This document shows, in pieces, positions 31,341 to 37,462 of a DNA stretch of 45,323 nucleotides (within the stretch, counting starts at the first letter, position 1; every line of letters starts with the position of its first letter). Location of the stretch: assembly GCA_029981855.1 (NCBI GenBank), contig JARRCS010000026.1:1-45323 (forward strand), in the 5' to 3' direction. The notes below the pieces were generated by a model. It was not told the origin of the DNA. It saw only the letters and a program-made list of their open reading frames with translations, and ran no database searches. The position numbers were made by a program, and so were the translations under genes. This DNA comes from Halanaerobiales bacterium (lineage in GTDB: Bacteria > Bacillota > Halanaerobiia > Halanaerobiales > DTU029).

Positions 31341-31370
31341 ATAAAAAAACGGCCCACTTTTAAGTGGGCC
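31341..31370 (-). terminator. Terminator after SPOCS gene C
   Basis: Perfect GGCCCACTT/AAGTGGGCC stem, followed on the minus strand by GTTTTTTTATTCC. Confidence 0.92.
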
Positions 31371-31402: not shown

Positions 31403-33187
31403 TTATACTCCATAAGGTCCGACTTCATTGACGTTAAACTGGATGTTCTCGGTAACTTTAACAAATATATCTCCAATTACCTTCTGAGTTAGGACATCTC
31501 CGGCAGGACTTAAGATCGGTTTGATAAAGGATATTTCCGGAATTACATCTACATTCATACCTGGCCTTGCTCCGGTTATCTCGACAAAGGTACTGAAGGG
31601 AACATTCTCTTCCTGGTGAAGTTCAACATTATCTTCACTGATAAAGAAGATCTGTTTACGGATTATCCCCTGTACAATAACCTTATCACTGATTACTACC
31701 GTATTGAGATTCTCAAAGACGGCATCAATTTCCTTAATCTTGATTGCCGGCTGATCTAAGGTAACAGTAGTTTCACTTAAAATCTGTTTGGTATTTTCAC
31801 CGATTACCTCTGGTAACATAACCAGCGAATCATCACCTGTTGCAACATTTATCTGAACCGTCTCAGTTACTTTAACAAATAATTCCAGAACTATCTCCTG
31901 GCTAACAGTAGTTCCATCCGGACTTAATTCCTGTTTGATGTGCTCAACATTCGGGTGTACCTGAACATTCATCCCAGGTTCTGCCCCCGGTATTTCAACA
32001 AACTCACTGAAGGGGATATCTTCTGCCTGGTGATGCTCAACATCATCTGTTCCAATATAGAATAACTGTTTGTGGATTACACCCTGGATAATAACCTTAT
32101 CTTCGATCACATCAGCTACCAGATCAATAACCTCTGCCGTTACATCAACAATTTTTACCGCTGGAACAGCCAGAGTTACTTCATTATTAATCATTGTCTG
32201 AACAGAATTCTCACCGATTACCCTCTCTACCTTAACCAGAGGCCCTGTTCCTGTTTCCACAATTAGTTGCTGCACAGATAAAACCTTTACAAAGAACTGT
32301 AAGACTACCTTCTGATGCAAGACATTACCATCCAGAATTAAATCGGAGACAATGTGTTCTATAGTTGGTTCAACGAGAACATCCATCCCCGGTTCAGCCC
32401 CTGGAACATCAACGAAAGTACTGAACTCAACATCTTCAGCCTGATGGTGGATAACATTGTCTGTACCTACGAAAAAGATCTGTTTATGTATGATACCCTG
32501 TATGATAACTTTATCTGTTATTACATCTGTTATCAGCTCTGTGATCGTTGCATTGATGTCCCTGACCTTGATAGCTGTCATCACTAGAGGAAGATCACTT
32601 ACCTCCATCGTCTGCACTACGTTTTCACCGATAACAACCGGGGTTTTAATCAACTCTAAACCTCCTACTTGTTGTAATTCAGGCATATGCAAACCTCCTT
32701 TACTATTTTCTTGGATTTGCTGTACTGACAGCTCCTCCTCTTCATCCTGAACTTCTGATTCAGAAATATCTTGGATTTCAATAACCTCTTGCTCTTCCTC
32801 AACCCCTTCTTCATTAATTTCTGGTTTATCAAAATCATTATCTAATTCCTCTGTATTTAATTCTTCTTCAATTAATTCCTCCTTTCCATGGTCATCACTA
32901 AGGCATCCTTCATTATCTTCGGGGGTAAAAATGTGATGAAAGGCATAGATCTCATGAACCTTTCGTGGTTTTAAATCATTTTCCTCAGATTCTCGAAAAT
33001 CAGTATTTTTCTGATAAGCTAGTTCATAGGCCTTTCTATTTAATTTTGGTACTGGTTTCGGTCGGCTAAGAACCCCTTCTTCCAAAATGTCATTTATTTT
33101 ATTAAAATTAGTCCAATAGTGGTATAAATAATAAGTACCTATCATAAAACCGGCAATTATTCCCAGTAAGATAAACCAGCCTAACAA
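31403..33187 (-). CDS. SPOCS (DUF3794) x3 protein C with N-terminal membrane segment
   Basis: 594 aa. One N-terminal hydrophobic helix (FILLGIIAGFMIGTYYLYHY, residues about 5-24), then roughly 140 residues of acidic, Glu/Asp-rich sequence, then three SPOCS repeats from residue 168 on. Each repeat has VIGENxxQ, AxKIxxI, a DKVIIQGIIHKQ-FF strand pair, HQxExxPFS, EIPGAEPGM and a closing FVKVTE. No LysM. Start: TTG with G-rich SD GGGGGTGG. Within the frame a perfect SD (AAGGAGG, 32694-32700) and ATG (32686) with 7-nt spacing would produce a 427-aa soluble form that begins like its paralogs (MPELQQ). Either the gene makes two isoforms or a separate upstream ORF was fused to it. Confidence 0.78.
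   Translation of the reverse strand: MLGWFILLGIIAGFMIGTYYLYHYWTNFNKINDILEEGVLSRPKPVPKLNRKAYELAYQKNTDFRESEENDLKPRKVHEIYAFHHIFTPEDNEGCLSDDHGKEELIEEELNTEELDNDFDKPEINEEGVEEEQEVIEIQDISESEVQDEEEELSVQQIQENSKGGLHMPELQQVGGLELIKTPVVIGENVVQTMEVSDLPLVMTAIKVRDINATITELITDVITDKVIIQGIIHKQIFFVGTDNVIHHQAEDVEFSTFVDVPGAEPGMDVLVEPTIEHIVSDLILDGNVLHQKVVLQFFVKVLSVQQLIVETGTGPLVKVERVIGENSVQTMINNEVTLAVPAVKIVDVTAEVIDLVADVIEDKVIIQGVIHKQLFYIGTDDVEHHQAEDIPFSEFVEIPGAEPGMNVQVHPNVEHIKQELSPDGTTVSQEIVLELFVKVTETVQINVATGDDSLVMLPEVIGENTKQILSETTVTLDQPAIKIKEIDAVFENLNTVVISDKVIVQGIIRKQIFFISEDNVELHQEENVPFSTFVEITGARPGMNVDVIPEISFIKPILSPAGDVLTQKVIGDIFVKVTENIQFNVNEVGPYGV
32684..32700 (-). promoter_or_regulatory. Internal ribosome-binding site and start codon in SPOCS gene C
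   Basis: AAGGAGG (32694-32700), 7-nt spacer TTTGCAT, ATG (32684-32686), in frame with the longer gene. This SD is better than the one at the outer TTG start. It encodes GGLHMPEL when read through. Confidence 0.7.
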
Positions 33188-33244
33188 TTAACCACCCCCT
33201 TTTCTTGATATATAATATGGTCCTTCCCTTAAAAGTGTGCAAAG

Positions 33245-35435: not shown

Positions 35436-36512
35436 TTAACCAATAAATAACTGGGTAAACATATATCCATAGGGGCCACCCTTTTTAATCCCGATACCTA
35501 CTTTAGTAAATTTAGGATTCAGGATATTTCTCCGGTGACCGGAGCTATTCATTAAGGCCCTATGGGCACCACTAACACTACTGTTACCTGCTAAGTTCTC
35601 TCCGGCAGTACGATATTTAATACCGGCATCATTAAGCATCTTAAAAGGAGAGCCATAGGTTGGCGAATTATGACCGAAGTAATTATTGTCGATCATATCC
35701 TGACTCTTCTTACGGGCCAGGTTTACCAGCCTTGGATCCATCTGTAATGGTTCTAACCCGCGAGAAGTTCTCTCTTTATTAATCATAGATAACATCTGCT
35801 GCTCTAATCTACTTAAATTAGAGGAAGGTTGCTCCGGTTTGGTCCCTGGCTCTTCCGGTGCTGGCTGTTCTGGCTGTGGTTGTGGCTGTGGATCTGGCTT
35901 AGGTTCCGGCTCCGGCTGTGGTTGTGGTTGTGGTGCCGGACTTGGAGCTGGCTCTACAGGTGCATTGCCAAACTTAGCCCTATAGACAGCATCAATTTTA
36001 TTCTTAGTTGTGCTATCAACCTTACCGGTTATTGGAAGCCCATGATCCCTCTGGAAGTACATAACAGCAAGGGTGGTCTCTCTTCCGTAATATCCGCTTG
36101 GGCTCACATCATAACCAAGCTTAGCCAATTTCAACTGGATGTTCTTAACAGCTGCTCCCTGCATACCTCTTTCTAAGAGAACATTCGAGGAATTATCGGG
36201 CTGGCTTGTCCCGTTATCATTTTCGTTATTATTATTATTATTGGTATCTCCATTATTGGTATTATTATCGTTATTTCCGCTATTTCGGTTAATTACTTTA
36301 TCGGTACCATATTTTGCCTGGTAATACCTGGAATAAAAATCATCTCTAGAATCCGAACTATAATACCTGCTATTATTAGAAGAATACCTGGTTGAATACT
36401 GATATCCACTTGAAGAACTGAAACTATATGCCAGTAAATCTGCTGGCACCAAAGTCATGATAAAGACCAGTGTTAACAGGACAACTAAAATCTTTCCCGT
36501 TAATTTTCTCAT
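35436..36512 (-). CDS. Secreted CAP-domain protein with peptidoglycan-binding domain
   Basis: 358 aa. Signal peptide at the N-terminus (KILVVLLTLVFIMTLVPADL), a Ser/Tyr/Asn-rich low-complexity stretch (about 30-110), a PG_binding_1 domain (GMQGAAVKNIQLKLAKLGYD to STTKNKIDAVY), a Pro-rich linker of PQPQPEPEP type, and a C-terminal CAP/SCP domain of YkwD type (LSMINKERTSRGLEPLQMDP, HNSPTYGSPF, AGENLAGN, HRRNIL, YMFTQLFIG). YkwD-type CAP proteins are found in spores and envelopes; the biochemical role is unclear. ATG with GGAGGAG upstream. Its CAP domain closely matches the adjacent gene, so the pair arose by duplication with different N-termini. Confidence 0.88.
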   Translation of the reverse strand: MRKLTGKILVVLLTLVFIMTLVPADLLAYSFSSSSGYQYSTRYSSNNSRYYSSDSRDDFYSRYYQAKYGTDKVINRNSGNNDNNTNNGDTNNNNNNENDNGTSQPDNSSNVLLERGMQGAAVKNIQLKLAKLGYDVSPSGYYGRETTLAVMYFQRDHGLPITGKVDSTTKNKIDAVYRAKFGNAPVEPAPSPAPQPQPQPEPEPKPDPQPQPQPEQPAPEEPGTKPEQPSSNLSRLEQQMLSMINKERTSRGLEPLQMDPRLVNLARKKSQDMIDNNYFGHNSPTYGSPFKMLNDAGIKYRTAGENLAGNSSVSGAHRALMNSSGHRRNILNPKFTKVGIGIKKGGPYGYMFTQLFIG

Positions 36513-36694: not shown

Positions 36695-37462
36695 TTAGAC
36701 TGCAGGATCAGGACTATCTATAAATAACTGCACAATCATTAAGCCATAAGGTCCACCTTCAATAATCCCAACACCGATCTTATCATAACGCGACATTAAG
36801 ATATTATCTCTATGCTCAGGACTTTCCATCAATGAGCTAAAGGCCTTTTCAACGGTTCTGGCACCGGCTAAGTTTTCCCCGGCCAGAGAATACTGAATTC
36901 CTTCCTCTTTTAACATCTCAAAGGGTGAGCCAAAGGTTGGTGACTGATGAGCAAAGTACTTATTCCTGATCATATCCCTGGCCTTTTTTCGGGCCAGCTC
37001 AACCAGTTGCAGGTCTATCTTCAGGGTATTTAACCCCTTTTCCCTTCTGATCTGATTAACCAGCTCGATCATCTTGCTCTCTTTATCAGTTAAACCCTCC
37101 GAATTTAATTCGGGGTTTTCTACTATCACAACCTCATCTTTTTGCCGGGAGATTTCCTCTGGATTATCATTTATTTGTTTACTATCTTTATTATTAACTG
37201 TATCATTTAAATCCAGGTTTAATCCCTTTTTAATTGTGGAGGTAATCAGATCATCACTACCACCGCCAGTAGTATTATCTATCATTAAATTAAGGATCCA
37301 TAACATAACTAAGCCTTTAATAACTGTTAGGACACTACCTTTATGGTCACTCCAGAAGCTGGCTTCCACTCTGGTACTGCCCAGAAAGCCAAAGGTTAAA
37401 AAATTAACTAATAATACTACTACCAGTAAAATAGGGATCTTCTTTGAACGGTAACCTTTCAA
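36695..37462 (-). CDS. CAP-domain (YkwD-like) protein 2
   Basis: 255 aa. N-terminal hydrophobic segment (IPILLVVVLLVNFLTFGFLG), probably signal or anchor; a second short hydrophobic stretch (TVIKGLVMLWILNLMI); a polar linker; then a CAP domain from about 125: VNQIRREKGLNTLKIDLQLV, HQSPTFGSPFEML, AGENLAGA, HRDNIL, GLMIVQLFID. It lacks the peptidoglycan-binding domain of its neighbour. TTG start preceded by GGGGGTG. The upstream DNA shares a 20-bp motif with the promoter of the six-LysM gene. Confidence 0.83.
   Translation of the reverse strand: MKGYRSKKIPILLVVVLLVNFLTFGFLGSTRVEASFWSDHKGSVLTVIKGLVMLWILNLMIDNTTGGGSDDLITSTIKKGLNLDLNDTVNNKDSKQINDNPEEISRQKDEVVIVENPELNSEGLTDKESKMIELVNQIRREKGLNTLKIDLQLVELARKKARDMIRNKYFAHQSPTFGSPFEMLKEEGIQYSLAGENLAGARTVEKAFSSLMESPEHRDNILMSRYDKIGVGIIEGGPYGLMIVQLFIDSPDPAV

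Follow-up and report, generated by a model that had tools for sequence, protein, structure and literature searches.

Organization of the Gene C Locus

The window, that is, the entire stretch of 45,323 nucleotides analysed here from a Halanaerobiales bacterium (GCA_029981855.1, contig JARRCS010000026.1), holds a cluster of SPOCS genes, one of which, gene C, reads through 594 codons without interruption from a TTG at 33187 in the ORF listing of the window (Table 1). Its product scores 151 bits over three domains against PF12673 (curated cut-off 23.6) and is thus a SPOCS/SipL domain protein, in which residues 1–167 constitute the N-terminal part and residues 168–594 the SPOCS part. A Pfam scan detected no LysM domain in gene C; the window paralogs A and B carry LysM. 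Kinship of gene C with paralog A was rejected, the identity being 48% to paralog D versus 25% to paralog A. The preliminary description had likened the inner N-terminus MPELQQ to that of paralog A (MPDQLQ), a resemblance by eye only that we consider superficial; relatives begin with MSGLQN, MDPLVR or MADVKQ at this position.

Table 1. Coordinates of gene C and associated features in the window.
Feature	Position	Strand	Remarks
Sigma-K/sigma-E-like promoter, CACA-N16-CATATTATA	33211..33239	(-)	Upstream of the anchor; pattern search
Shine-Dalgarno (SD) sequence of outer start, AAAGGGGGT	33194..33202	(-)	Duplex energy -11.2 kcal/mol; spacing to TTG 6
Gene C outer ORF, TTG start, 594 aa	31403..33187	(-)	Membrane helix, acidic tether and three SPOCS domains
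N-terminal helix, residues 2–38	33074..33184	(-)	Hydrophobic at about residues 2–24; AlphaFold model and hydropathy
Conserved segment after helix, LNRKAYELAYQKNTDF...KVHEIYAFH	32936..33043	(-)	Common to anchors of other Halanaerobiia
Acidic tether, predicted disordered	32687..32935	(-)	pLDDT <50 over residues 62–173
Internal ribosome-binding site and start, AAGGAGG-N7-ATG (AAGGAGGTTTGCATATG)	32684..32700	(-)	In frame, between tether and SPOCS domains
Inner ORF, SPOCS scaffold, 427 aa, MPELQQ...	31403..32686	(-)	Holds all three Pfam SipL/SPOCS domains
Pfam SipL (PF12673) matches in inner ORF	32569-32339, 32155-31934, 31741-31529	(-)
Probable intrinsic terminator, GGCCCAC...GTGGGCC then T run	31341..31370	(-)	Read in the sequence, unscored

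The outer product had been described as adding a membrane helix and an acidic tether of about 140 residues to an inner product with SPOCS domains only, and both descriptions are borne out. The best 19 residues of the anchor, which adjoin the start, have a mean hydropathy of 2.0, and the stretch that follows is strongly acidic (41 D/E versus 13 K/R in residues 34–167, and 31 versus 3 in residues 91–163). An AlphaFold model, built from 25 sequences, combines the N-terminal helix and the low-confidence tether with confident β-strands from residue 177 onwards, so that the inner start just precedes the folded part. The conserved segment after the helix was judged by eye from the translations of G000, G001, G004, G010, G022 and, in part, G002. 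No family was found for the anchor alone in NCBIfam, no solved structure matched gene C in sequence at E 0.01, and a fold search returned no meaningful match (best E 0.0093, TM-score 0.07).

A hydrophobic segment is present in nearly all anchors of the relatives described below, as judged by an automatic scan that picked the wrong ORF in G001 (G003 and G063 have no anchor). The anchor in the window has no K/R before the helix and one within 15 residues after it; in many anchors the counts on both sides are similar, and they include residues that precede the true start. These charge counts give no clear orientation of the anchor, and we place the SPOCS domains tentatively in the cytosol.

An Internal Start in Gene C

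The in-frame AAGGAGG-N7-ATG noted in the preliminary description is confirmed in the sequence of gene C. The pattern AAGGAGG-N5-9-ATG occurs at four sites in the window versus 0.91 expected from shuffles, and the other three sites are the starts of listed ORFs (28490, 36512 and 44901). When all ATG, GTG and TTG codons located more than 50 codons into the 34 window ORFs taken as genes were scored for pairing with the 16S tail, the inner ATG of gene C, with an anti-SD duplex energy of -12.1 kcal/mol, turned out to be the best of 328 internal in-frame starts (next best, -11.5 kcal/mol), and its energy is comparable to that of the best gene starts in the window. A weaker second internal site of gene C (TTG, -10.9) lies 11 codons downstream of the inner ATG.

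Joined and Separate Genes among Relatives

Relatives were collected from two samples: (i) the Halanaerobiia, where 18 of 59 genomes carry the SPOCS part of gene C at E ≤1e-40, and (ii) the G059 class, which comprises genomes assembled from metagenomes under the labels Bacillota, Firmicutes or Hydrogenispora, and where all 29 genomes matched at E 1e-100. Twenty-seven loci of the latter were tabulated, G073 (contig end, no upstream sequence) and G065 (an 825-codon frame, read as a paralog) being set aside, which yields a table of 45 loci. Nine loci that we read as having another architecture or no hydrophobic anchor (L052, L053, L054, L059 and L062–L066) stand outside the table.

According to labels assigned by eye, anchor and SPOCS part are fused in frame at 21 of the 45 loci and separate or out of frame at 18; in four more an A tract marks the place where the frame is lost, and in two (G003 and G063) no anchor was seen. 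The preliminary description had raised the question of a stop codon between the two parts in relatives, and the answer is yes: the 18 loci with separate or out-of-frame genes imply that some species have a joined gene where others have two parts, while the two loci lacking an anchor imply that tethering is not universal. When the fused label is placed on a tree of the 45 SPOCS parts, with the A-tract out-of-frame genes scored as a state of their own, it changes 8 times, and at least 6 changes are forced by well-supported branches; removal of five long-branched rows leaves 7 changes in the 40-row tree, again with at least 6 forced. Judging from these trees, the join between anchor and SPOCS part is one that evolution has made or broken repeatedly, with at least six changes.

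Individual loci depart from the common pattern. At L093 (G003), which has no anchor, the promoter-like motif discussed below immediately precedes the SPOCS gene (-48), an arrangement that looks like a clean deletion of the anchor. The listing of outer starts covered 19 of the 21 fused genes; L120 and L121 (G074 and G060) are fused and have no recognised start codon ahead of the helix, though a AAAGGGGGG site is present there.

The divided loci raise the possibility that the inner product alone is the working scaffold, and that the anchor is a small membrane protein which either became fused by chance or serves mainly for coupling of translation. Separate or out-of-frame genes at 18 of 45 loci, together with the anchorless G003 and G063, are in line with this explanation and imply that covalent attachment is not indispensable everywhere. 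We nonetheless consider it unlikely: the frame is open across anchor, tether and SPOCS part at 21 loci, with about 80 to 320 codons ahead of the inner start, and three genera of the window's own family (G000, G001 and G004) are fused.

Conservation of the Internal Start

In the tabulated set, every one of the 21 fused genes has a start at the junction with an SD energy of -11 kcal/mol or lower, the best start within a 97-nt stretch having energies of -11.1 to -12.5, whereas the remaining in-frame starts in these genes, 633 in number, include just 2 that reach -11. Both of these fall among the 114 starts located in tethers, so that the chance level within a tether is about 2/114. Fisher's test of junction versus other starts gives p ∼1e-37, a value that ignores relatedness as well as the choice of the best start within 97 nt. 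Eleven extra loci from across the phylum add three fused genes, two with an SD energy of -12.1 (G453 and G415) and one with -7.8 at an ATG (G300), and no anchor was seen in the other eight; further phylum-wide matches included paralogs and genomes that the table already covers. Overall, 23 of 24 fused genes seen thus reach -11 or lower at the junction, G300 being the exception. In the split relatives, the site of the inner start is the ordinary start of the SPOCS gene. G010 and G022, both of them very long-branched, have TTG or GTG in place of ATG at the inner start. Local RNA accessibility was computed for 10 of the 21 fused genes; the inner site is only mildly favourable in most of them, and in G064 and G068 it does not exceed the mean of the other starts. 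At the junction of L101 (G038), the SD for the inner start consists of an A9 tract running directly into G6.

If only the full-length fusion were made, the internal SD would have to be a relic of a formerly separate gene or a chance product of the purine-rich tether. Acidic codons rich in purines can indeed yield SD-like strings, and fused genes occur in many species. Such an origin is nevertheless improbable, more so than that of a scaffold working without its anchor, when the 21 of 21 junctions are set against 2 of 633 starts elsewhere and against the chance level in tethers; moreover, near the inner start the tether varies in length and sequence among relatives, and a relic should have decayed. 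The inner start has been kept while the join changed repeatedly, and the site therefore appears to work as a start and not to be a relic. A pause of elongation that aids domain folding without any initiation would fit the location of the site at a predicted domain boundary, and yet it is very improbable, since a pause needs no start codon, one is present at workable spacing in all 21 fused genes, and split relatives begin their SPOCS gene at the equivalent site. Finally, an error of sequencing or assembly that erased a stop between two genes, a notion to which the stops and frame changes at the junction of some relatives lend some colour, is rejected as next to impossible because independent genomes of other genera, among them G001 (a single-contig genome), G004, G038, G039, G041 and G046, are likewise fused in frame, as are 21 of 45 loci across several genera.

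The preliminary description had left it as two isoforms or a gene fusion, and both halves hold: the locus has fused and split states, and the internal start is kept in all 21 tabulated fused genes, as expected for two isoforms from a single mRNA and not for a relic. Based on the sequence comparisons collected so far, gene C most likely yields an anchored and an unanchored protein from one message.

Putative Promoter, Probable Single Transcript and Link to Sporulation

The pattern CACA-N12-18-CATATNNTA has two matches in the window, one ahead of the anchor of gene C (Table 1) and the other at 30738-30711, upstream of paralog B, which suggests that paralog B belongs to the same regulon. Among the relatives, CAC-N14-18-CATANNNTA is found upstream in 39 of 45 loci versus 0.78 expected from mononucleotide shuffles, and in 40 of 45 loci CATANNNTA is absent within 200 nt of the inner start; a single mRNA is therefore likely to serve both products. 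The spacing of the motif is compatible with the 14–16 nucleotides given for sigma-K elements of B. subtilis in the passage cited (PMC517825), and we read the motif as presumably recognised by sigma-K and not by sigma-E.

SpoIVA was found in 27 of the 59 Halanaerobiia genomes; it accompanies gene C in 17 of 18 genomes, compared with 10 of the 41 that lack gene C (p 4e-7). The sole exception, G022, has gene C and no SpoIVA match. The best reading is that gene C is a mother-cell sporulation gene, a prediction that rests on the association with SpoIVA and on the promoter-like motif. Adjoining the SPOCS cluster, the window encodes at 35436-36512 and 36695-37462 what we take, from their appearance, to be CAP/SCP (YkwD-type) proteins, and in G003, G004 and G012 similar proteins are likewise encoded upstream of gene C.

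An A9-A10 Tract in a Related Clade

Within the G059 class, a clade of eleven species (L108–L118) has a run of nine or ten A residues in the tether, which is present in all eleven and starts 106–117 nt ahead of the conserved SPOCS match. The frame of the anchor continues into the SPOCS part in seven of them and is broken in four (G076, G061, G075 and G067), a state that changes three times on the tree, at least two of the changes being forced; the sister species G061 and G075 have A10 and A9, respectively. Twenty lysine codons are invariant throughout the clade and only one of them is AAA in every species, and the tree length at third positions amounts to 5.1 changes per site, so that conservation of lysine alone fails to explain the tract. 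A10 is a rare sequence: in four of the eleven genomes, it has 2, 3, 6 and 10 matches genome-wide (overlaps counted), one in each being the tether site. A test of codon positions downstream of the tract, meant to show whether the SPOCS frame is still translated there in the out-of-frame species, revealed no third-position excess in any group; since the in-frame species likewise lack it, the test gives slippage no support. That the genomes of the clade are mostly metagenome assemblies is a further point against slippage.

Runs of nine A residues are described as prone to slippage in many bacteria (PMC1088944, in the passage cited), and an A11 run in tssM is described as giving rise to two variants, both of them required (PMC4256274, likewise). 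The A9-A10 tract is thus a candidate for a programmed slippage site; none of the papers searched treats transcriptional slippage together with sporulation and the spore coat. It is tempting to speculate, and we do so tentatively, that the link between anchor and scaffold evolved into a control point, with the start for the free scaffold kept nearly everywhere and the supply of tethered scaffold set by the state of the join, be it in frame, separated or, in one clade, slippery. If this were true, a selected A9-A10 tract would fix the proportions of three products, namely the scaffold with its anchor, the scaffold alone and the anchor alone, irrespective of the frame found in the genome.

Proposed Mechanism and Significance

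We propose that one mother-cell mRNA with two in-frame starts gives rise to a membrane-tethered and a free SPOCS scaffold, which we regard as probable. A single mother-cell promoter would drive transcription of gene C. Initiation at the outer TTG would then yield the 594-residue protein, the N-terminal helix of which would reside in a membrane while its acidic, disordered tether bears the three SPOCS domains; the membrane may be the outer forespore membrane, with the SPOCS domains facing the mother-cell cytosol. Initiation at the inner ATG, with its near-perfect SD, would yield the free scaffold of 427 residues. Anchored copies may seed a layer on the membrane, which free copies would extend, although the existence of both forms could equally have a cause other than seeding. 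That both starts are used is what we infer, and a consideration against it is that the inner start may be blocked by ribosomes on their way through the outer frame. All three fused genomes in the window's family combine a TTG as outer start with an inner ATG that has a stronger SD, which suggests that the free form may be the more abundant one.

How a soluble scaffold of the spore coat is attached to the forespore membrane varies between spore formers, and tethered and free copies from one gene would constitute a simple answer for the Halanaerobiia and a related class. Repeated fusing and splitting around a constant internal start illustrates, in addition, how bacteria can switch between one gene and two while keeping both products. 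The second product would escape any gene finder whose output is restricted to the longest frame.

Comparison with Known Systems

Thermus dnaX (A9; PMC1088944) and tssM of Citrobacter rodentium (A11; PMC4256274) are described in the cited passages as genes in which an in-frame tract leads to two length variants. The A9-A10 tract of the one related clade is comparable to them as a candidate, and runs of six or more identical nucleotides are absent from gene C of the window.

Among families of spore proteins, the SPOCS part of gene C has weak similarity to the CsxC family NF045794 (29 bits versus a cut-off of 135); CsxC appears in work on exosporium proteins of C. sporogenes. Gene C has three SipL/SPOCS domains; DUF3794 is presumably the older name of this Pfam family. 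SipL of Clostridioides difficile is described as having three DUF3794 domains (PMC6436350), and SpoVID of B. subtilis as having an N-terminal SPOCS domain (PMC10867305). According to the passages on them, however, both SipL and SpoVID have a C-terminal LysM, which gene C lacks, so that it does not qualify as an ortholog of either; these source passages mention no internal start.

The nearest precedent, as far as the cited passages go, is SafA of B. subtilis, likewise a spore morphogenetic scaffold with an internal in-frame start: its second start (M161/M164) gives rise to C30, which is devoid of the N-terminal targeting part and is recruited by full-length SafA (PMC6490927, PMC6282716). The two differ in what the longer form adds, since the N-terminus of SafA is described as comprising LysM and a SpoVID-binding region without a transmembrane domain (PMC6436350), whereas that of gene C consists of a membrane helix and an acidic tether, and the short form would consist of SPOCS domains. 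Like SafA/C30, gene C has an in-frame internal start, and the SD of this start is conserved in 21 of 21 fused relatives. Gene C would hence represent a known kind of arrangement, internal-start isoforms of spore scaffolds, for which it provides an unusually clear evolutionary record.
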